From positions 1 to 37,124 of the IMG/VR virus record IMGVR_UViG_3300044971_000040: 37,124 nt of DNA, one strand, 5' to 3'. The stretch's first letter is position 1. The number at the start of each line of letters is the position of its first letter. The notes beneath the pieces are model-generated. The model was not told where the DNA came from. It saw only the letters and a list, made by a program, of their open reading frames with translations, and did no database searches. The stretch is from a virus. Below, piece after piece: positions 1,187 through 36,540 of this stretch. Position numbers and translations under genes: made by a program.

Positions 1187-3181
1187 TTACTTTGCAACCC
1201 AACCCGTGTTACCTGAACCAGATTCTTTGATGTACAAAGTTGTATTAGCACCACCATCAGTGCGAGTAAAAAGCGACCCAACTGGCGCTGTAACAGCACC
1301 TTCGGGTGTGCCTGTACCAACCAACCATTTTTGTCCACCATTCCAATTGATTTGACCTTGTGCAGTGTTAAAACTTATTTGATCGCCAAAAACTTGCGGA
1401 GTTCCTGATGGAAAAAATGTTTGCCCTGTTTGTAACCCGCCATTTAATGCTGGCTGATAAAAGATTTTTGATAACGCTAATGTTCCCGCAATTTGAGAAT
1501 TGCTACCCACGGGAATTGAAATATCACAACCACGCACATAACCATTATTACTGGATTGAATGGCAACACCCGATGTTTTTGATGCTTCCCATAGACCATT
1601 TATAAAAGTAATTGCTTGGCAATATGCCGTATTTCGCATTGCATTTGGAATTGATGGGTTGTTATATTCCCATGCTTGACCCATACGAACCAAGTCGTAA
1701 CTTATTGCTTCAAAACGGGGCGCAATAAATGTAATCTCACGAATGTTTGGCGATGTTCCACTAGTTGATGTTCTTTGGTCTAGCGTTGCGCCACGCAACG
1801 AATTTTCAAACCTCATGCCGACAAATGTTTGATTGCAAATTGTTTCGTCAATTGCATCGGGTTGTAAAACAAGACAATACGCTGCCGCTTGAATAGAACA
1901 TCCTGTCCATGTGCCAAGTGTGCAATCTCTACCCAACTGAATACCAACATAATTGGCAGAACAATTCACTGCGTTTGCGGTGATAGGCCAAGAATTTCTA
2001 GCATAAATACCAGTTGCAAATCTTCGGATAAAAATGTTATCCATGACCACATCAAGAGCATTATTGAGTTTTAATCCCGTAGTTGTAGTGTCTGCGGTTG
2101 GAAAAGTTGGTGGGGTTGTTGCCGCACAGTTTTGGCTTTCAGGGCCAATAATTCGCAAATTGCGGATAGCAATAAAAGACGCTTCACGATATGTAAAGTT
2201 GTTTCCTGTTGCGCCAATCTCTAATGCAGCACCAGTTGTTAAAGTGCTATTTGCCCAATTTAAAGTTGCACCATTGCCTTCAATGATCCATCCACGGGCA
2301 TCCATTTCAACATTGGCAAGCAAAGTTAAATTGCCGCTTAAATCATACTCACCCGCTGGAATTGTTAAAGTGCCGCCTTTTTCAAGATCACGCAAATAAT
2401 CTAGTGCTTTTTGAAAAGCAACGTTATTTGCCGTTCTGCTATTGCTTGGACTAGCGCCAAAATCCCTTACGCTTACAATTTCACGCATTTTGTCTTGCGC
2501 TGATCGAGCAACCGCATTGGTTACATTTGGCTCAAAACCAATCCAATCAGAACCATCATCATCGGCAAGATTTTGCACATTGCCAGTTTGACCTTTGAAT
2601 CCAGTAAATGCAGTTTGAGCCGCTGTTTGACCAGATGATGAATTGATTTGTGATGTAGTAAATTTTACCAACGCCCCAACATGAAGCCCCGAAATAAAAG
2701 TTACTGATGTGCTACTGGTTTCTAAGAACGCATATGTTGCACCAGGCCCATACTGATTTACGCCATCCACAAAAACCGACAAACTGTTTGTGCCAGGCTG
2801 ATAAGCCATTGTGGTCAAAGTAAAAACAGTTTGACCCGCAGTTGCAGTTTGGATTTCTTGTTGGTTTGTGAAGTTTATAAAATTGGAATTGATGCCAACA
2901 ATGTTGTCGTAAGTACCAATTAAAATTTCACTTGAGTTTTTGATAACAAACTTGTAAGTAACGCCATCAGTCAACCAAATTTCACCGCTTGGCACACGAC
3001 CCGCTGAATCCAAAATAATAGGATTTGAGTGGGAAATAGAGCCAGCGCTTGTGGTGTATGTTGTAGCGGGTGTTGATGACCCTGCGACATAAGTGTAAAT
3101 CTTGCCACCCGACAGCACATTGCCATCATTGTCAAAAAATTGGGCTGCTACGCCTCCAACTGGTGATAAATTAACAGCCAT
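1187..3181 (-). CDS. Tailspike-like protein, adaptor plus beta-helix
   Basis: 664 aa. Residues 1-~180 form an adaptor domain (starts MAVNLSPVGG; SGEIWLTDGVTYKF; QYGPGATYAFLET) shared closely with the 681-aa spike at 34,495-36,540. From about residue 236, VRDFGASPSNS followed by a Gly/Asn-rich region looks like a pectate-lyase-type right-handed beta-helix, the fold of many host-polysaccharide depolymerases. No catalytic residues can be assigned by eye. The Shine-Dalgarno TAAGGAAAGAAC precedes the ATG. The neighbours are other fibres, so this is probably one of several alternative receptor-binding or capsule-degrading spikes attached through the common adaptor. Confidence 0.85.
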   Translation of the reverse strand: MAVNLSPVGGVAAQFFDNDGNVLSGGKIYTYVAGSSTPATTYTTSAGSISHSNPIILDSAGRVPSGEIWLTDGVTYKFVIKNSSEILIGTYDNIVGINSNFINFTNQQEIQTATAGQTVFTLTTMAYQPGTNSLSVFVDGVNQYGPGATYAFLETSSTSVTFISGLHVGALVKFTTSQINSSSGQTAAQTAFTGFKGQTGNVQNLADDDGSDWIGFEPNVTNAVARSAQDKMREIVSVRDFGASPSNSRTANNVAFQKALDYLRDLEKGGTLTIPAGEYDLSGNLTLLANVEMDARGWIIEGNGATLNWANSTLTTGAALEIGATGNNFTYREASFIAIRNLRIIGPESQNCAATTPPTFPTADTTTTGLKLNNALDVVMDNIFIRRFATGIYARNSWPITANAVNCSANYVGIQLGRDCTLGTWTGCSIQAAAYCLVLQPDAIDETICNQTFVGMRFENSLRGATLDQRTSTSGTSPNIREITFIAPRFEAISYDLVRMGQAWEYNNPSIPNAMRNTAYCQAITFINGLWEASKTSGVAIQSSNNGYVRGCDISIPVGSNSQIAGTLALSKIFYQPALNGGLQTGQTFFPSGTPQVFGDQISFNTAQGQINWNGGQKWLVGTGTPEGAVTAPVGSLFTRTDGGANTTLYIKESGSGNTGWVAK

Positions 3182-11292: not shown

Positions 11293-12567
11293 TTATCCCA
11301 TCCATCCGCTTGCCATTGCAATCTGCGCTGACTTTTTGCGTTTAGGCGGCTCTTTAATCATAAGGGCAATGTAACGAAATGCGTCTGCCCCGTGTGAGTA
11401 GTGGTCGTGTAGCGGGTTGCGGCTGAACTGCCCTGTTTCGGGGTCAACCTCGTACCGATAGTGTCTAAGGCAAGCCAAACCATCCGCTGTGTGTTCCCTG
11501 TCAAAGTAGCAATTAGGGAAGATTGTCCTTGCGGCATTGATTGAGTCAAGAACAGGCACTCTTGGCATGATCTCGGTCTTGTACCCTGCGGCTCTCACGA
11601 TGTCATCAATTGACCGACCCGCTGCCGCCAAGGTCTTGTTCTCTGCGTCATGGGGAAGCCAAATCTTGTCATACACATACCCATAAGTCTGCATGGTCGC
11701 CAAGTAATAACTGATGGTCTTTTGGCTGTCCTCGATGTAGCGGATTAGCCTGGTCTCCATGCCCACAAACTGCAAAAACCAAATGGCTGTGCTGTCTGAC
11801 CATCCCAAGTCAAAGATTGCGTGAACTGGCTTTGTAGCGTCATAAGGCACACGGCAGATTCGCCCATCCTTCTCGGCCTGTTGCATCTCTTTGGCAAAGA
11901 TCGCCCCATCCACAGTCTGTCGGCATAAGCCTTCCCACACTTGGTTATAGGCTTCCTCATCCCTTGCTTTGAGGGCATCTTTCTCAAGTCTGAGGGTGTC
12001 GGGAAACCAAGGGTTGTCGTACCAATTCACCTTCATGGTGATGCAATCTGCGGGTGGGTTTGCCACAAACCTTTGATAGGTCTCGTCTGTCTCCAACTCA
12101 GGGTTGAAGCTGATCCATATCTCAGAGCCTTCCTTTCGGATGGTCGGGATCAGGATGTTCCAACTTAGGCGGCTGGTGGTCTGCGCTTCCTCAACCCAAC
12201 AAATGTCAACGCCCTCATAGGATTTGATGTTTGAGACATTGTTCTTGAGGCCAACAAAGCTGAACTCTGTGCCGTTTCTGCCCCTGATGCTTGTTTGAGT
12301 GATCTCGTAGAAGCTAAGTAAGCCAAGACTTTCGATCTGGTCGCACAGTAACTTGTGAACCGAATCCTTGATGGATGTCTGAAACTCACGGGCGCACAGT
12401 ATGCGGATTGGGTCTTTTGCGCCTTTGATCAGTAACGCTCGGGCAATTCCCCAACTCTTAGCCCCGCCCCTTCCACCATAAAGAACCTTGTAACGGCTCT
12501 TTTTAAACAGACCTTCCAACTTGACGGGAAACTCTGCCTTGGCAATGGCATCGGTTACATCGCTCAT
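11293..12567 (-). CDS. terL: Terminase large subunit
   Basis: 424 aa, packaging ATPase/nuclease. Walker A is GGRGGAKS at residues 31-38. Walker B is VDICWVEEA at ~120-128, with the catalytic Glu pair at 126-127. The RNase H-like nuclease domain shows FDLGWSDST (Asp253), LPHDAEN (Asp307) and SHGADAFRY (Asp395), the expected three acidic sites. Length fits the Terminase_3/PBSX-type group better than the longer P22 gp2. The ATG overlaps the stop of the upstream small-subunit candidate as ATGA, indicating translational coupling. Confidence 0.95.
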   Translation of the reverse strand: MSDVTDAIAKAEFPVKLEGLFKKSRYKVLYGGRGGAKSWGIARALLIKGAKDPIRILCAREFQTSIKDSVHKLLCDQIESLGLLSFYEITQTSIRGRNGTEFSFVGLKNNVSNIKSYEGVDICWVEEAQTTSRLSWNILIPTIRKEGSEIWISFNPELETDETYQRFVANPPADCITMKVNWYDNPWFPDTLRLEKDALKARDEEAYNQVWEGLCRQTVDGAIFAKEMQQAEKDGRICRVPYDATKPVHAIFDLGWSDSTAIWFLQFVGMETRLIRYIEDSQKTISYYLATMQTYGYVYDKIWLPHDAENKTLAAAGRSIDDIVRAAGYKTEIMPRVPVLDSINAARTIFPNCYFDREHTADGLACLRHYRYEVDPETGQFSRNPLHDHYSHGADAFRYIALMIKEPPKRKKSAQIAMASGWMG

Positions 12568-13393: not shown

Positions 13394-13672
13394 TTAACAG
13401 TTCCAGTTTTTGAGGGATGCCTTAGCCCGTTCCGCTGGGCCTTTGGCGTTTTTAACTACCCCCTCCATCCTAGCGCAAAATGATGCTTTGCGACCAGCAT
13501 CGGCTTTTGTCTTTGGATTTGGGGCGGGTGGTTTCAAATTTGCATTGTTCTTGGCATTGTATTCAGCACGACCTTTAGCGGTCATTCCCGCACCTTTTTC
13601 AGTGGGGTTGTAGGTTTTCCCCTTGCCTGTGGTCTTATGGGGAATGGGCTTGTCGTGCTTTTTCGTTGCCAT
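13394..13672 (-). CDS. Conserved basic phage protein (DUF6321-like)
   Basis: 92 aa. The central AEYNAKNNANLKPPAPNPKTK followed by DAGRKASFCARMEGV and the terminal LKNWNC are a pattern I recall from many aquatic phages, annotated DUF6321. Strongly basic with a conserved Cys in SFCARM and a Cys at the last position. No recognised enzymatic motif. It sits in the small-gene cluster between the GroES-like gene and terminase. Start at the only upstream ATG; its ribosome site is weak (AAGAAG). Confidence 0.8.
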   Translation of the reverse strand: MATKKHDKPIPHKTTGKGKTYNPTEKGAGMTAKGRAEYNAKNNANLKPPAPNPKTKADAGRKASFCARMEGVVKNAKGPAERAKASLKNWNC

Positions 13673-13674
13673 GA

Positions 13675-13842
13675 TTATTTCTTCTTCGCAGTCTTTGCAG
13701 ATTGTTTGAAAGCCTCGGCAGTGGGTGCGCCCTTTGCGCCTGGCGATCTCATGCGCTCGGGAGTCTTACCCGCAGCCTTTTGGCGCTCGATGCGCTCTTG
13801 CTTGGCATGGATGTTGGCATATAGCCCTTGTTTAGTCGCCAT
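13675..13842 (-). CDS. Small basic phage protein
   Basis: 55 aa, MATKQGLYANIHAKQERI... The start at 13,842 has GGAGGAATAAAC upstream, one of the best ribosome sites in the window, so the longer frame starting CGCGG is rejected. The pattern GLYANIHAK-x-RI, then a Gly-Ala-Lys-Gly-Ala-Pro-Thr segment and an Ala/Lys tail recurs in phage genomes in company with the DUF6321-like protein. Function unknown; the charge suggests nucleic-acid contact. Confidence 0.75.
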   Translation of the reverse strand: MATKQGLYANIHAKQERIERQKAAGKTPERMRSPGAKGAPTAEAFKQSAKTAKKK

Positions 13843-13844
13843 GT

Positions 13845-14102
13845 TTATTCCTCCACAACCGCACAAATGTCGGCTTCTTGAATGATTTGGTAATCTTGAC
13901 CATCAATCTTTTGGGTGGGCCAATTAAGGTAATCCCCGTTTCCATACTTGATGAAGTCTCCCACTTTGACATCGTAAACCTTTGGGCCGATGGCGACAAT
14001 AGTTCCCTCGTTAAAGGGTTCTTTATTGTTGATGAAAATAATATCGGACAGGTTTCGGACTTGTGGTTTTACCACAACACGATCACGCAATGGTGTCAGC
14101 AT
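13845..14102 (-). CDS. GroES-like co-chaperonin (Cpn10)
   Basis: 85 aa; bacterial GroES is ~97. Visible family marks: N-terminal TPLRDRVVVKP, a mobile-loop segment carrying the hydrophobic SDIIFINN (equivalent of the GroES Ile-Val-Leu tripeptide), then GTIVAIGP, VKVGDFIKYGNG and the C-terminal strand QDYQIIQEADICAVVE. The roof-loop part is reduced. Phage versions, such as T4 gp31, replace or assist host GroES so that GroEL can fold capsid proteins. Placement ahead of the terminase-capsid genes fits that. Overlaps the upstream gene by 7 nt. Confidence 0.9.
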   Translation of the reverse strand: MLTPLRDRVVVKPQVRNLSDIIFINNKEPFNEGTIVAIGPKVYDVKVGDFIKYGNGDYLNWPTQKIDGQDYQIIQEADICAVVEE

Positions 14103-18146: not shown

Positions 18147-18197
18147 AGGTTCTCCAAGGGTGGATATACCACCTTTCTCCATCGATCTGTTTTCCAT

Positions 18198-18426
18198 AAT
18201 TCATCTTAATTTAGCTAACTAAAAACAAACGCGACCAAGTGCGCTTGACGGGTCAATTCACTTATAGACTGGGCCTTGTTCCACCGTTGTACCCAATCCT
18301 TTACCAGTCGCTTAACCAACGCTGGTCGGCAAGTCAGGGGGTGTGTCCTGTTGTCGGTGTTTTCTTCCAAGCCATCCATGCAAATGCGCTGCTGTCGTGT
18401 GGAGTACGGCTGCACGAAAAGAGGAC
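18198..18426. other. Intergenic stretch without a convincing gene
   Basis: About 230 bases between the cro terminator hairpin and the leftward operon. The minus strand is open here (part of a 97-codon frame at 18,215-18,508), but that frame has no ribosome site and runs through the hairpin. It has a TTAGCTAA palindrome near 18,205-18,215. The promoter for the leftward recombination operon should lie here; I could not identify one with confidence. Confidence 0.4.
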
Positions 18427-18505
18427 ATAAAAAAAGCCGTTTACTACTGCCCTCGGTAGGAACCCTGAAGTAAAAACCAAGGGCGAGAGCATGAGTAAAC
18501 GGCTT
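18427..18505 (-). terminator. Two-tier hairpin with U-tract downstream of cro
   Basis: A perfect 12-bp outer stem, AAGCCGTTTACT/AGTAAACGGCTT (18,434-18,445 and 18,494-18,505), encloses an inner 8-bp stem, GCCCTTGG/CCGAGGGC on the minus strand (18,449-18,456 and 18,477-18,484), and a ~20-nt apical loop. Seven T follow on the minus strand. One inner pair is G-U on the minus strand but A-C on the plus strand, so the RNA is probably read leftward, as the 3' end of the cro transcript. Confidence 0.75.
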
Positions 18506-18551
18506 CAATTTATTGCTTCCTACGGCAACGATTTAATTATAAGCACATTTT

Positions 18552-18710
18552 TTATTTGTTGTCAAACCACTCTGGCTTGAGGATCATCAATTGATACAAA
18601 CGCCCCGTTGGGATCATCTTCCAATTGTGTACTGCTGCCCTGGTGATGCCCAAGATACGGGCAAGCTCACTCTGTGAGCCAGCAAGGGTGATAGCCTTTT
18701 GTTTATCCAT
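18552..18710 (-). CDS. Cro-like repressor (P22 Cro family)
   Basis: 52 aa, MDKQKAITLAGSQSELARIL... A minimal helix-turn-helix: SQSELARILGITRAAVHNWK matches the P22-Cro/YdaS pattern (x-Q-x2-LA-x-x-LGI-x3-AV-x-x-W), then IPTGRLYQLMIL and a short tail. Size is close to P22 Cro (61 aa). It would bind operators in the divergent region 18,711-18,856 and repress early transcription. It has no Shine-Dalgarno; TGC-TATACT ends 6 nt before the ATG, implying a leaderless message. No partner CI repressor was found. Confidence 0.88.
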   Translation of the reverse strand: MDKQKAITLAGSQSELARILGITRAAVHNWKMIPTGRLYQLMILKPEWFDNK

Positions 18711-18725
18711 TTAACAAGTATAGCA
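18711..18725 (-). promoter_or_regulatory. cro promoter, extended -10
   Basis: Minus strand TGC-TATACT (-10 at 18,717-18,722), 6 nt before the cro ATG. There is no good -35 at 15-18 nt, which the TGn extension may offset. Position predicts initiation at or next to the start codon. Confidence 0.6.
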
Positions 18726-18758
18726 AAATAAACATTTAAGCATTTGCATAAATACAAC

Positions 18759-18776
18759 ATTAGGGAAAGTCCTAAT
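18759..18776. promoter_or_regulatory. Candidate Cro operator
   Basis: ATTAGG-GAAAGT-CCTAAT, a perfect 6-bp inverted repeat with a 6-bp centre, between the divergent cro and early promoters. The half-site spacing suits a small dimeric helix-turn-helix repressor. Only one copy was seen, so the assignment is tentative. Confidence 0.4.
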
Positions 18777-18785
18777 AAAAGAACC

Positions 18786-18813
18786 TTGTTGTGTGTTTAG
18801 TTTGGTGTACACT
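18786..18813 (+). promoter_or_regulatory. Rightward early promoter
   Basis: TTGTTG (18,786-18,791), 16-nt spacer, TACACT (18,808-18,813). The -10 overlaps the palindrome GTGTACAC. An ATG follows 6 nt later and opens a 14-codon leader ORF (18,820-18,864) that ends just inside the first early gene. Confidence 0.4.
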
Positions 18814-19911: not shown

Positions 19912-20466
19912 ATGTCAATCGCTAATTTACTGACTTTGAATGTCAACGAACACACTGAGAAAAAAGCCAATCTGACTTATCTGTCATGGGCATGGGCATG
20001 GGCTGAAGCACTCAAGGCAGACCCCAAAGCATCGTTCAAGGTTGAGATGTTTGGTGACAAGTGCTTTATGGATATCAACGGCACAGCAATGGTGTGGGTC
20101 ACAGTCACCATGTTTGATAAGCCAATGACTTGCCAGCTTCCCGTGATGGATCACCGCAACAAAGCCATCGTGAACCCTGATGCTTTCCAAGTGAACACAG
20201 CCATCATGCGTTGCATGACCAAAGCACTCAGCTTGCATGGTCTCGGTCTGTACATCTACAACGGGGATGATCTGCCCTCTTTCATAGAGCCTGAGTCAAC
20301 CATTGAGCCTGACAGCATGACAGACTTGTTTGCGGCTATTGAGAACGCCACTACTCAAGACGAACTCAAGATTGCCTATAAAGTAGCGTATGCCGCTTGT
20401 GATGGCGACAAGGGTTGGCAGATCAAAGTTATTGCAGCCAAAGACAAAGCAAAGGCCAAACTATGA
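19912..20466 (+). CDS. Single-strand annealing protein, Sak3/DUF1071 type
   Basis: 184 aa. N-terminal LNVNEHTEKKANLTYLSWAWAWAEALK, then FMDINGTAMVWVTVTM, DHRNKAIVNPDAF and VNTAIMRCMTKALSLHGLGLYIYNGDDL are the conserved blocks of the DUF1071/Sak3 recombinases. It would coat and anneal single-stranded DNA, working with the YqaJ exonuclease encoded just downstream and with NinB. Ribosome site AAGGATCATC. A short C-terminal helix (about 138-184) is the usual variable tail. Confidence 0.92.
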   Translation: MSIANLLTLNVNEHTEKKANLTYLSWAWAWAEALKADPKASFKVEMFGDKCFMDINGTAMVWVTVTMFDKPMTCQLPVMDHRNKAIVNPDAFQVNTAIMRCMTKALSLHGLGLYIYNGDDLPSFIEPESTIEPDSMTDLFAAIENATTQDELKIAYKVAYAACDGDKGWQIKVIAAKDKAKAKL

Positions 20467-20672: not shown

Positions 20673-20782
20673 TTGAACTTATTGCCGCATTTATTGTTGG
20701 ATGGATGTTAAGACCATTGGGAGATGTGTTTTTTTTCATATTGAATAACGCTATCAAAGCAACCATAAAGGATAAAAAATGA
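20669..20782 (+). CDS. 37-aa membrane microprotein
   Basis: MIELIAAFIVGWMLRPLGDV then FFFILNNAIKATIKDKK. Two short hydrophobic stretches split by Arg-Pro, and a Lys-rich end that would stay in the cytoplasm. The ATG overlaps the previous stop, and its own TGA overlaps the ATG of the exonuclease gene (ATGA), so it fits the operon with no free bases. AAGGGG lies upstream. Function unknown. Confidence 0.6.
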   Translation: MIELIAAFIVGWMLRPLGDVFFFILNNAIKATIKDKK

Positions 20783-21405
20783 TTGAAATGATGGATCAAG
20801 GCACAGAGGAATGGTTCACCATTCGCATTGGCAAAGTAACCGCATCTCGTGTAGCTGACGTTCTTGCCAAGACAAAGACGGGCTATTCAGCAACCCGTGA
20901 CAACTACATGGCTCAGTTGGTGTGTGAACGCCTCACAGGTCAAAAGGGTGAGAATTTCACGAACGCTGCCATGCAACACGGCACAGAGACAGAACCCCTT
21001 GCCAGAGCCGCTTATGAGGCTTTACAGGATGTTTTGGTTGATGAAGTGGGGTTTGTACCCCATCCCTCAATAATCATGGCTGGCGCTTCTCCTGATGGCT
21101 TGGTGGGTGATGATGGTCTGATTGAGATCAAATGTCCCAACACAGCCACGCACATTGAGACTTTGCTCAGTCAATCAGTACCAAGCAAGTACAACACCCA
21201 GATGCAGTTTCAGATGGCTTGCACAGGGCGACAGTGGTGTGACTTTGTGTCTTTTGACAATCGTCTGCCAGAGGAACTTCAATTGTTTGTTAAACGTGTC
21301 CCAAGGGACAATATGTATATCAGACTAATGGAAGAAGAAATTGTCAAATTCTTGAATGAACTTGACATCAAAATTGCTCAACTTATGGAAATAAAAAATG
21401 TCTAA
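20779..21405 (+). CDS. YqaJ-type viral exonuclease
   Basis: 208 aa. PD-(D/E)xK nuclease: QGTEEWFTIRIGKVTAS near the start, HGTETEPLAR (His68/Glu72 region), then GASPDGLV with Asp106 and IEIKCP with Glu116 and Lys118, and a Gln-rich QMQFQMA helix. This is the layout of the YqaJ/lambda-exonuclease family, which degrades one strand of duplex ends to feed an annealing protein. It is paired here with the Sak3-type gene 300 nt upstream. Confidence 0.93.
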   Translation: MIEMMDQGTEEWFTIRIGKVTASRVADVLAKTKTGYSATRDNYMAQLVCERLTGQKGENFTNAAMQHGTETEPLARAAYEALQDVLVDEVGFVPHPSIIMAGASPDGLVGDDGLIEIKCPNTATHIETLLSQSVPSKYNTQMQFQMACTGRQWCDFVSFDNRLPEELQLFVKRVPRDNMYIRLMEEEIVKFLNELDIKIAQLMEIKNV

Positions 21406-21634
21406 ACTTTACGAAATTACCATTGTTTCAGGTAAATACAAAAACAAAGATGGTGTGGAAAAATCCCGCTATCAGAACATCGGCTCGGTCATTGAGACCA
21501 AGAACGGGCCGATGTTGAAACTTGACATGATTCCGCTTATAGATGGTGGATGGAATGGTTGGGCATACATGAATGAACCAAAGCCTAAAGACGATTACAA
21601 AGGCTTGCCAAAGGATGATGACATCGATTTTTGA
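21398..21634 (+). CDS. Small OB-like protein, possible ssDNA-binding role
   Basis: 78 aa. MSKLYEITIVSGKYKNKDGVEKSRY-QNIGSVIETKNGP shows strand-turn-strand repeats and an acidic tail (KDDYKGLPKDDDIDF), the arrangement of small phage single-strand-binding proteins. I recall very similar short proteins beside phage recombinases, usually hypothetical. The acidic, Phe-ending tail resembles SSB C-termini. The function is inferred. Overlaps the exonuclease gene by 8 nt. Confidence 0.7.
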   Translation: MSKLYEITIVSGKYKNKDGVEKSRYQNIGSVIETKNGPMLKLDMIPLIDGGWNGWAYMNEPKPKDDYKGLPKDDDIDF

Positions 21635-21644
21635 TTAACGGGTG

Positions 21645-21720
21645 AAAGCGGATGCTGGAGGGAGGTAATAGCCCTCGCCACTCGGAACACCTTGTGGCAA
21701 ACAGACGCAGCGAGTAGCCC
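21645..21720 (+). ncRNA. Structured intergenic RNA element candidate
   Basis: The 104-bp gap between two early genes holds two adjacent hairpins: GAGGG (21,658-21,662) with CCCTC (21,672-21,676), and GCCAC (21,677-21,681) with GTGGC (21,694-21,698). CTCG/CGAG (21,681-21,684 and 21,711-21,714) could form an alternative pairing. No ORF, no U-tract. The sequence feels familiar from aquatic phage genomes, but I cannot name a family. Could be a small RNA or a leader controlling the next gene. Confidence 0.5.
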
Positions 21721-21738
21721 AACTATTTAGGAAATATC

Positions 21739-22065
21739 ATGGACTATAAAGACGCATTTAAAAGAATTTTCGCCATGCCCGAATTCCCAAGAGTCAGGGC
21801 AAATGATCCCCTAACATCGTTTCAGGCGGCAGATTCCATCAAGGAAGCCGCCACCCAACACCATCAAACAATCTTGGAGTGCCTCCAAACACACGGGCCA
21901 CTAGGCAAGGATGGCATCTCAGCTTGTACCAACTTGGACAGCAATCAGGTTGCCAGGCGGCTTAACGAAATGAAAATAATGGGCTTGATTGAACTGACAG
22001 GCAACACAGTCAAATCCAACTCAGGCAGAAGTGAAAGAGAGTGGCAATGTACCCAATCGAACTAG
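21739..22065 (+). CDS. Winged-helix DNA-binding protein
   Basis: 108 aa. After RANDPLTSFQAADSIK, a motif seen in small phage regulators, the region HHQTILECLQTHGPLGKDGISACTNLDSNQVARRLNEMKIMGLIEL reads as a winged helix: helix, helix, recognition helix with QVARRL, then a wing containing SNSGRSEREW. Similar to MarR/phage wHTH proteins. It is late in the early operon, preceded by the structured element, and could be an early-to-late regulator (inference). Ribosome site TTAGGAAATATC. Confidence 0.8.
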   Translation: MDYKDAFKRIFAMPEFPRVRANDPLTSFQAADSIKEAATQHHQTILECLQTHGPLGKDGISACTNLDSNQVARRLNEMKIMGLIELTGNTVKSNSGRSEREWQCTQSN

Positions 22066-34494: not shown

Positions 34495-36540
34495 TTACAG
34501 AGGTCGTACCACAGAATAATTGATGAAAGGCCCTGTAAAAGTTGGCGCTTTAAGCATCAAAAACCCGCCGTTATCTGTGCAAGTTACAGTTGTATCAACT
34601 GTTAAGCCTGCCGCAGTAGGAGCATAAAGCCTCCAGACGCCAGCATCATTGTCAAAAAACACAAGATACGTTTTCTGCCAGCTTGCAAGCAAATGGTCAA
34701 TCCTTACCCGCCATAAAAGCGCAGTAAACCCATCGTTTACAAACTGAGTTGTAAATTCAAACGATCCAGAGTTATTGACAAGCGTTTGGTATGGGTTGTT
34801 GTTTCCAGTGGTTATGCCGTTTCTAAAACGGCCACCATAAGCTGTGGCAATCAATCCATTGGTGTTGCGGTTGTCTAAAGACCGAACTGGCCCGTTGTAT
34901 GCGCTTGTATTGGCATCAATTTCATAGTTTGGCGTGCCCAAGCACATATTTGGCAGACCGCTAAACGACAACGGGTAAAGCGGGTCGCTATTGCAATTGA
35001 TGATTTCGCCAAAAATGTTATTGATTGCTGTATTGGTAATACCGCCGTCAAAGTAGGAGCTGATAAAAGTTGCGTTTGAGTACGCATTATTACCTAAAGT
35101 AGATACGATGTGCTGCGTTGAAGCACCATAGAACCAGCAGTTTGTTATAAACAAACGTCTAGCAATGGCTGAAAATTTCAAGTTGCACGTTGAGTTGTTT
35201 TCAAGATAAACAGTGTCCAAGTACAGAACTGTACTTTCTGAAATCAACTCAATACCAATACCGCAACCTTCAGCAGAACTACTTTCAAGTTTGCCTGAGT
35301 CAACGCCGCCAATTTGCATACCAGTAGCGTAAGTGCCTACTTTAATACCTGTCATTGGCATGATGTTGGAAAATGCTGTGGTTTTAAAACCTACGCCGCC
35401 AACACCGCTTCCCAAACCACGCAAAGAAATGTTCAAAAGTTCAAGGTAGAAGCAACGAGTTAATTCAATTCCGTTAAACGAATTTTCAACTTGAATGTCT
35501 TCTAATGAACATCCGTAATTGAAGTTATGCAGCCTAATACCAATACCAAAACCATTGAGGTTCAGGTTCATAATTTCCACGTTAGCCGCCACCTGAGTTT
35601 CAGACCCTGTGGTGTTGGCTACTGGTGTAGATCCGCTTAAATAGCCAGAAATTAAACCCGTAAAAGTAGATGCGTTTGGCGTAGCCACATTGCTCTTGAT
35701 AAGGGAGTTCCCAAAATCAAGCGTAAACATTTTATTTGTAGCGTTATTGCCGAAAGGCAATATAAGCGTACTGGTAATTAGATAAGTTCTGCAAGGCGAT
35801 GTTAATGAGCCGCCATTGATTGCAATATATGTGATTGCTGCTTGAATAGCTGCGGTGTCGTTAGTTACTCCATCACCAACAGCACCAAAATCTGTAAGAC
35901 TAATTGTCTCAGCTAGTTTATTTTTAACATTAGTTGTAACAGAGTTAGTAAAAGGTGGGTCGTAAACAACTTGAGAAGAATCAATTGCGCCGCCACTCAA
36001 TGTTTGGGTTGTGGTGAACTTGACTACAGCGCCAACATGAAGCCCGTTGACAAAAGTAACAACAGTTGAGCTTGTCTCAAGATATGCATACTGTGCGCCA
36101 GGGCCGTACTGGTTTACGCCATCAACAAACACAGACAAAGTGTTTGTGCCAGGCTGGTACTCTGTGGTTGTTAGCGTAAAAACAGTCTGGTTGGCAGTAG
36201 CTGTCTGAATTTCTTGTTCAGCCAAGAAATTGATAAAGTTTGAATTGATGCCGCTGATATTGTCGTAGGTGGCAATCAATACATCGTTGCTGTCCTTCAG
36301 CACAAACTTGTATGTGATGCCGTCAGTCAACCAGATTTCACCACTGCCAGACACACGGCCAGCAGCATCCAAAACGATAGGGTTTGTCCAAGCAACAGTG
36401 CCTGCGCCGGTAGTGTAAGCAGTTTGCGGTGTAGTTGTACCAGCCGCATAGGTGTACAGCTTGCCGCCAGTCAGGACTGCGCCGGTGTTAGTGAAAAACT
36501 GGGCCGCAACGCCGCCCACGGGGGAAAGATTGACGGCCAT
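34495..36540 (-). CDS. Tailspike-like protein, adaptor plus beta-helix
   Basis: 681 aa. Adaptor residues 1-~180 match the 664-aa spike closely (MAVNLSPVGGVAAQFF; YQPGTNTLSVFVDGVNQYGPGA). Residues ~215-240, LTDFGAVGDGVTNDTAAIQAAI, open a right-handed beta-helix of ~250 residues (LNLNGFGIGIRLHNFNYGCS; YLDTVYLENNS), then a C-terminal domain with a jelly-roll look (NNSGSFEFTTQFVNDGF...WRVRIDH). Probable host-surface glycan hydrolase or receptor-binding spike. Ribosome site GGAGTGACCTAA, which includes the stop codon of the upstream 54-aa gene. Confidence 0.87.
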   Translation of the reverse strand: MAVNLSPVGGVAAQFFTNTGAVLTGGKLYTYAAGTTTPQTAYTTGAGTVAWTNPIVLDAAGRVSGSGEIWLTDGITYKFVLKDSNDVLIATYDNISGINSNFINFLAEQEIQTATANQTVFTLTTTEYQPGTNTLSVFVDGVNQYGPGAQYAYLETSSTVVTFVNGLHVGAVVKFTTTQTLSGGAIDSSQVVYDPPFTNSVTTNVKNKLAETISLTDFGAVGDGVTNDTAAIQAAITYIAINGGSLTSPCRTYLITSTLILPFGNNATNKMFTLDFGNSLIKSNVATPNASTFTGLISGYLSGSTPVANTTGSETQVAANVEIMNLNLNGFGIGIRLHNFNYGCSLEDIQVENSFNGIELTRCFYLELLNISLRGLGSGVGGVGFKTTAFSNIMPMTGIKVGTYATGMQIGGVDSGKLESSSAEGCGIGIELISESTVLYLDTVYLENNSTCNLKFSAIARRLFITNCWFYGASTQHIVSTLGNNAYSNATFISSYFDGGITNTAINNIFGEIINCNSDPLYPLSFSGLPNMCLGTPNYEIDANTSAYNGPVRSLDNRNTNGLIATAYGGRFRNGITTGNNNPYQTLVNNSGSFEFTTQFVNDGFTALLWRVRIDHLLASWQKTYLVFFDNDAGVWRLYAPTAAGLTVDTTVTCTDNGGFLMLKAPTFTGPFINYSVVRPL

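Follow-up and report, generated by a model that had tools for sequence, protein, structure and literature searches.

What kind of element fills the gap between positions 21635 and 21738 of the IMG/VR virus record IMGVR_UViG_3300044971_000040, and why should it be kept there? The gap itself is real: in the window, by which we mean the whole 37,124-nucleotide stretch of this record that was analysed, it runs from the stop of one open reading frame (ORF, 21398-21634) to the start of the next (21739-22065). A first-pass annotation, made from the letters alone, took it for a structured non-coding element between a gene resembling those of single-stranded DNA-binding (SSB) proteins and a winged-helix gene, and offered a leader, a small RNA or an origin-like element as its function. 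The gap encodes a conserved RNA domain, composed of a constant base (an outer stem P1, an invariant internal-loop stack and a second stem P2) and a folded head. This domain belongs to a new phage RNA family, uncatalogued in Rfam, in which the head domain is traded between phages.

The first part of the answer lies in the fold. A covariance model, R1, was built from 25 relatives, none of which has the window's type of head. It gives a sole match in the 37 kb of the window, with 53.2 bits and an expectation value (E) of 6.2e-14, and the same result over the whole record; a covariance model of a shorter form of the element matches the same site weakly (E 0.058). The architecture of the long form is P1, GAAAGCGGATGC, P2, the head, GACGCAGCGAGTA, the returning strand P1' and, usually, the letters ACC. 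In the window, its parts are placed as follows.

21638-21722, plus strand: full extent of the long-form RNA, from its match to covariance model R1
21640-21643, plus strand: 5' strand of the outer stem P1 (GGGT), pairing with 21717-21720; P1 covaries in relatives
21644-21657, plus strand: invariant 5' arm GAAAGCGGATGCTG, its final three bases being the 5' strand of P2
21658-21701, plus strand: variable head of 44 nucleotides, with two hairpins in the minimum-energy fold
21702-21716, plus strand: invariant 3' arm CAGACGCAGCGAGTA, its initial three bases being the 3' strand of P2
21717-21720, plus strand: 3' strand of P1 (GCCC), with ACC next in most relatives

The minimum-energy fold of the whole element coincides with the comparatively supported fold, and its head contains two adjacent hairpins. 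These are the two hairpins originally noticed, and both are present (GAGGG 21658-21662 with CCCTC 21672-21676, and GCCAC 21677-21681 with GTGGC 21694-21698). The letters of the alternative CTCG/CGAG pairing that had been drawn alongside them are also there, but the pairing is unsupported because CGAG sits in the invariant 3' arm GACGCAGCGAGTA, which is constant whatever the head. Beside P1, GAA lies opposite AGUA, an arrangement that we take to resemble the loop E (bulged-G) motif.

The second part of the answer comes from relatives. Viral contigs were scanned with sequence patterns, which gave 72 short-form and at least 120 long-form stretches. With a P1 of at least 3 base pairs required, the matches listed contain 131 elements of the long form and 57 of the short form, spread over 175 loci, and 14 occurrences of the 3' motif without such a P1 were excluded. 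The 131 count the window's element three times, as the window, as L007 (equal to the window) and as the identical contig L002. Where letters were specified in the search, their conservation is in part a product of the pattern itself; positions 9-12 (ATGC) lie outside it, and there A and T are found in all 131 long elements, G in 122 of them and C in 128.

The pairing of P1 was assessed on all matches of the two arms (133, of which 101 are distinct), P1 not being required so that circularity would be avoided. Pairs 1 to 4 are formed in 99, 98, 99 and 90 of the 101 distinct members, compared with means of 49, 57, 71 and 49% when the 3' flanks are permuted among elements. Pair 5 is formed in 61 of the 101 (34% permuted), and pair 6 is not above permutation in this set. 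Five members (L096, L120, L135, L162 and L202) have fewer than two P1 pairs. The five pairs of P2 are formed in 100, 99, 95, 84 and 71 of the same 101 members, among which no pair beyond these five exceeds permutation.

The changes within these stems are compensatory. In a long-form alignment of 25 of the 131 elements, hand-chosen for variety and without the window's head, P1 and P2 together display 49 cells changed on both sides, against 16.2 in shuffles, with 0 of 500 shuffles as high; slid pairings all score far lower. The short-form alignment comprises 31 of 32 distinct elements, one with an extra base having been left out, and displays 52 such cells against 17.1 in shuffles (0 of 500 as high), whereas its further pair types are not above shuffles (485 of 500 as high). 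Pair 10-34 of the short form is unpaired by standard rules in 10 of the 31, being A-C in the rows shown, at a position where other elements carry G-U. Covariation in relatives and the covariance-model match thus uphold the structured non-coding element: the search recovers the window at the E value given above, P1 and P2 covary, and related phages keep the arms in this gap, with one relative, L218, lacking the element. That a conserved RNA family exists is in our view practically certain.

The same comparison bears on whether a peptide could be the conserved feature. Contrary to the first-pass annotation, the gap does contain an ORF, although this ORF is not a gene.

21652-21717, plus strand: 21-codon ORF within the element, rejected as a gene, its reading frame being lost across relatives

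Were this a gene for a 21-residue peptide, the open frame and the nearly identical letters in L006 would be accounted for, yet the start codon is lost in L004, the stop is lost in another relative, and, counted from the ATG position, the 3' arm is spread over the three frames (42, 41 and 46 of 129 elements). Because start and stop are lost in relatives while the outer bases change in compensation, the conserved feature is not the peptide, and we put the chance of a coding role close to nil. A scan of viral contigs for a pattern from part of the peptide gave 6 contigs. Four are true relatives, one of which is the same as the window for 14,462 bases, and the other two are chance matches; tblastn with the peptide gave no match, a query so short having little power.

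The short form of the element harbors a constant bulge, GGACGAA, and a small hairpin, with no long head (for example L004 3646-3689, minus strand). The 57 found are either alone or immediately downstream of a long form, in tandem in some phages. A variant upstream of a long element in L094 (1073-1128, minus strand) has GAAC replacing GAAA and a longer hairpin before CGGACGAAC.

It is the head that varies. The 131 long elements carry 120 distinct heads of 19-71 nucleotides, which sort by common 9-mers into 86 groups, including 65 singletons; the set of long forms is incomplete, and these figures are a lower bound on a larger true diversity. Compared with dinucleotide shuffles, the 120 distinct heads have a greater folding stability (mean z of -0.84, Wilcoxon p 4e-10) and are therefore folded domains. 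By inspection, families of heads display paired changes within their own hairpins, as in L155/L170 and L093/L129.

The clearest comparison is that of L106 and L169, which come from different metagenomes and show 1 difference in 287 bases upstream and 12 in 6951 bases downstream (13 of 7238 in total). Their heads, of 38 and 35 nucleotides, are unrelated, the inserts having no common 8-mer, and the L106 head is also found on a third contig, L219. Among the four pairs with near-identical flanks on both sides, three have unrelated heads and one has identical heads. The window's head type recurs in L001, L004, L006 and L010, and close relatives of the window carry either a second head (L156, L122 and L206) or a third (L217); the flanks of the window and L156 are 96% and 98% identical, and their heads differ. 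Similar heads also travel into different surroundings: in 26 pairs, several of which have members in common, heads at least 80% identical lie between flanks that share at most two 12-mers. Eighteen loci have the same short element and are alike downstream of it (identity to L004 of 73-100%, with just 46 comparable bases at one locus), and model R1 finds a long element in 7 of them, with at least four head types, and none in 11.

A search for the origin of the heads in the fetched phage DNA gave 28 matches outside the listed elements. The longer matches (28-48 nucleotides) are further elements missed by the strict pattern, confirmed by R1 in L042, L047, L053, L055, L066 and L072; L102 is among them without R1 confirmation. 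The remaining matches, of 15-19 nucleotides, are of chance size. Assembly chimera is possible for single contigs; the head-flank associations recur in independent contigs. Taken together, the head very probably behaves as an exchangeable cassette, swapped wholesale between phages.

A base stem, constant and variable parts and replaced cassettes would also be found in a retron or a diversity-generating RNA that is worked on by a reverse transcriptase. The reverse transcriptase family PF00078 was, however, found in 0 of the 26 carrier records, which are possibly fragments, and such an RNA is scarcely credible here.

The placement of the elements brings in the main rival explanation, a cis-acting intercistronic element. 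Its base would shield the 3' end of the preceding cistron, often an SSB gene, or modulate the gene that follows, and its head would be tolerated filler, free to vary. A same-strand ORF of at least 50 residues adjoins 92 of the 129 long elements that remain once duplicates of the window are removed, and 35 of the 57 short elements, where adjoining means ending from 20 nucleotides before to 12 nucleotides past the start of P1. P1 usually starts 4-10 nucleotides past the stop codon of the adjoining ORF, with 5 nucleotides the commonest spacing, and the ribosome site of the next gene is often close behind the element. Both features suit a cis element, as does the plain GC-rich hairpin that L218 carries at the same place. 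The adjoining upstream ORFs belong to unrelated families and are often SSB genes. The representative of the largest neighbor cluster (52 elements) is matched by PHROG models of single-strand DNA-binding proteins, and smaller clusters are of the Enc34/Gp2.5 type (3) and the DUF669 type, an SSB according to PHROGs (2); the window's own neighbor family (8), a 324-residue family (9) and a 213-residue family (6) are unproven as SSB. Against the cis element stand the folding of the heads beyond chance, the recurrence of the same heads in unrelated phages, their replacement between near-identical phages, and those members that lie in clusters of tRNAs or other non-coding RNAs and not behind SSB genes. 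A cis element with a free head is, on this evidence, less likely than not. A leader of the winged-helix gene, as first proposed, is possible for the operon of the window but is not general, because many elements precede unrelated genes or adjoin tRNAs.

Whole records carry one long element in 25 of 26 cases and two in 1 of 26. In L138 (3713-4164, minus strand), two long elements with different heads are accompanied by another structured-looking non-coding stretch and a tRNA-Met. The named carriers are the Bordetella phages IFTN6 and PHB04, with divergent arms. In vB_BaM-IFTN6 (L220, 5940-6200), a non-coding cluster in which no RNA is annotated contains a divergent element and structured-looking sequence, with a tRNA-Arg-like sequence just downstream, and L162, from a phage of a cultured bacterium, has a non-coding cluster (11360-12080) of a divergent element, structured-looking sequence and a tRNA-Arg. 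The element was not found in the examined stretches of Bordetella phages IFTN1, IFTN2, IFTN4 and IFTN8 or, in an element search, in plasmids, nor was its scaffold found in the stretches examined in all 8 records with similar SSB or exonuclease genes. Searches by blastn with the window and L109 elements gave no match in named phages, and bacterial genome contigs gave 0 matches to two exact patterns that do not extend to the long form in general.

The company of tRNAs, which adjoin the elements of L100, L138 and L148, raises the further explanation that the element is tRNA-like punctuation, processed by RNase P/Z, with P1 and ACC mimicking an acceptor end and the element being cut from the operon transcript. 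RCC-like letters are seen after P1', where the first base is A in 92, the next C in 111 and the next C in 103 of the 131 long elements, and a T-loop-type hairpin occurs in 7 of 120 heads against 0.24 in shuffles. In Burkholderia phage Bm1 (L213, 20388-20460), a true tRNA-Met located 6 nucleotides after the SSB gene occupies the slot that the element has elsewhere. Nevertheless, none of the elements is called as a tRNA by ARAGORN, A is not over-represented at the position following ACC, P1 has just 3-7 base pairs, and the most tRNA-like head gives a weak Rfam T-arm match (E 0.49). Punctuation of this kind is therefore, we judge, improbable. A tRNA body is not claimed for the L201 head, in which D-, anticodon- and T-arm-like parts can be seen by eye and Rfam recognizes the T-arm only, at E 0.49.

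The genes around the gap in the window are the following.

19912-20466, plus strand: Sak-like single-strand annealing protein gene, same operon (phrog_659, E 1.9e-45)
20779-21405, plus strand: exonuclease gene of the RecE/YqaJ type, same operon (phrog_149 exonuclease, E 2.6e-49)
21398-21634, plus strand: upstream ORF of 78 residues whose C-terminus is an acidic tail, DDDIDF; resembles an SSB gene in its position alone
21739-22065, plus strand: downstream ORF of 108 residues, winged-helix-like (phrog_1123, function unknown, E 1.2e-13; MarR-type regulator family, E 1.6e-4)

The operon upstream of the gap thus contains genes for a Sak-like annealing protein and a RecE/YqaJ-type exonuclease. The name SSB-like given to the 78-residue ORF holds for its position, which is typical of SSB genes, but its identity is unproven both by profile (phrog_18187, function unknown, E 7e-4) and by fold search, in which a structure model with a mean predicted local distance difference test score (pLDDT) of 71 gave no convincing match in the PDB. 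As had been stated, no promoter-like or terminator-like site is found in 21635-21738. Such gaps had been supposed rare in this genome; in the window they are not, similar or longer stretches existing between selected long ORFs, for example 13672-13845 and 18197-18791. Elsewhere in the window, two long proteins (1187-3181 and 34495-36540, minus strand) have a near-identical N-terminus (MAVNLSPVGGVAAQFF...) and apparently represent a duplicated structural gene, and a protein starting MLTPLRDRVVVKP (13845-14102, minus strand) presumably resembles a GroES-type co-chaperonin.

Genes for single-stranded DNA binding, annealing and exonuclease functions beside an element whose heads are exchanged at conserved arms could also suggest that the element works as DNA, a single-strand hairpin serving as an origin, primosome or recombination site with the arms as crossover sites. 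This does not sit well with the G-U pairs of P1 (first pair, 10 of 101), the G-U/A-C type changes of the short form, the RNA-type internal loop, or the finding that members with an adjoining upstream ORF lie on its coding strand, the only strand examined. RNA-type pairing with G-U pairs, together with the variable head, disfavors the origin-like proposal, and a role at the level of DNA is most improbable.

Of the three functions first offered, the small RNA is the one that we prefer. Specifically, we propose, with a probability of roughly 0.45, that the element acts as an RNA whose head would set specificity in conflict with hosts or rival phages; wholesale replacement of the head in otherwise unchanged phages is expected of a specificity determinant under diversifying selection. 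The RNA would be made as part of the recombination-operon transcript and might be released as a small RNA. Many phages would have in common the host or phage factor that recognizes the constant base, whereas the target bound by the head would vary among hosts or among rivals. Selection on that target would drive replacement of the head via short-tract recombination through the conserved arms, perhaps assisted by the adjacent annealing protein, exonuclease and SSB-type proteins. In conflicts of phages with hosts or with one another, the element might then act as a specificity module, be it a decoy, an aptamer or an immunity determinant. A fuller version, of a common RNA chassis with horizontally traded, interchangeable aptamer-like heads that would each recognize a different host-defence or rival-phage molecule and would be replaced by recombination at the pace set by an arms race, is put forward tentatively.

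Several points weigh against a specificity head. No partner protein was found, the heads have no excess complementarity to their own phage that would point to a target, and many short elements are without any long variable head. Independent transcription of the element, or its action in trans, is putative. Variation would also be open to a neutral head under no constraint but folding, although neutral processes would hardly yield complete replacement between flanks that have diverged by 0.2%. The possession of constant and variable parts is likewise a property of known guide RNAs, and the head might instead pair with a nucleic-acid target as a guide or antisense RNA, in antisense immunity or in a CRISPR-like or VIPR-like manner. 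Yet the longest complementary run in the element's own locus is 8.76 against 8.68 in shuffles (n = 129; incomplete loci, contiguous pairing), there is no YNNGG repeat array and the heads are self-folded, which leaves a guide or antisense RNA very improbable.

Even on a modest reading, a new and widespread phage RNA family has been missing from Rfam. Should the heads determine specificity, an RNA arsenal would be spread over well over a hundred phage contigs, and its heads would form natural libraries of folded domains usable for target identification. Phage proteins, such as tail fibres, repressors and the products of anti-defence genes, are well known for the rapid replacement of their alleles. 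We know of no structured phage RNA in which a constant base is joined to a head that near-identical phages have exchanged as a whole. Rfam 15, at the curated gathering score, gives 0 matches in the window and 20 diverse loci, permissive Rfam searches of the region give chance-level matches only, and a search of the open-licence literature by phrase and motif letters found no description of the element.

Comparison with known systems brings out both likenesses and differences. The element resembles phage tRNAs and tRNA-like RNAs in the post-SSB slot of Bm1, in the ACC after the closing stem and in its clusters with tRNAs, but differs in having no cloverleaf and a short P1, and in being missed by both ARAGORN and Rfam. 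The phage c4 antisense RNA (RF01695), which we take to be a small structured phage RNA tied to immunity, is similar in that respect; the element differs in having no Rfam match and no antisense target found. No RNA of this type is named among the candidate structured RNAs of a human-microbiome survey, in the portion consulted (PMC8040213). The vrRNAs of VIPR are composed of 9-16 YNNGG repeats and a 3' tail, come with a Vipr protein and are linked to inter-phage conflict (PMC13142463). They share with the present element the status of a phage-encoded RNA with structurally constant and hypervariable parts (PMC13142463). In contrast to their 9-16 repeats, the longest YNNGG run here is 2, in 6 of 131 elements, and what varies is a folded head flanked by the two arms, with no partner protein known. 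The STAXI motif (RF01728) is a pseudoknot repeated in at least 2 copies and is often found beside single-stranded DNA-binding protein genes, and thus has in common with our element both structure and an SSB gene neighborhood (PMC2864571). Where STAXI repeats its pseudoknot, however, the window has no such repeat, and instead carries a single RNA of stem, base and head, of which 25 of the 26 records hold one long copy.
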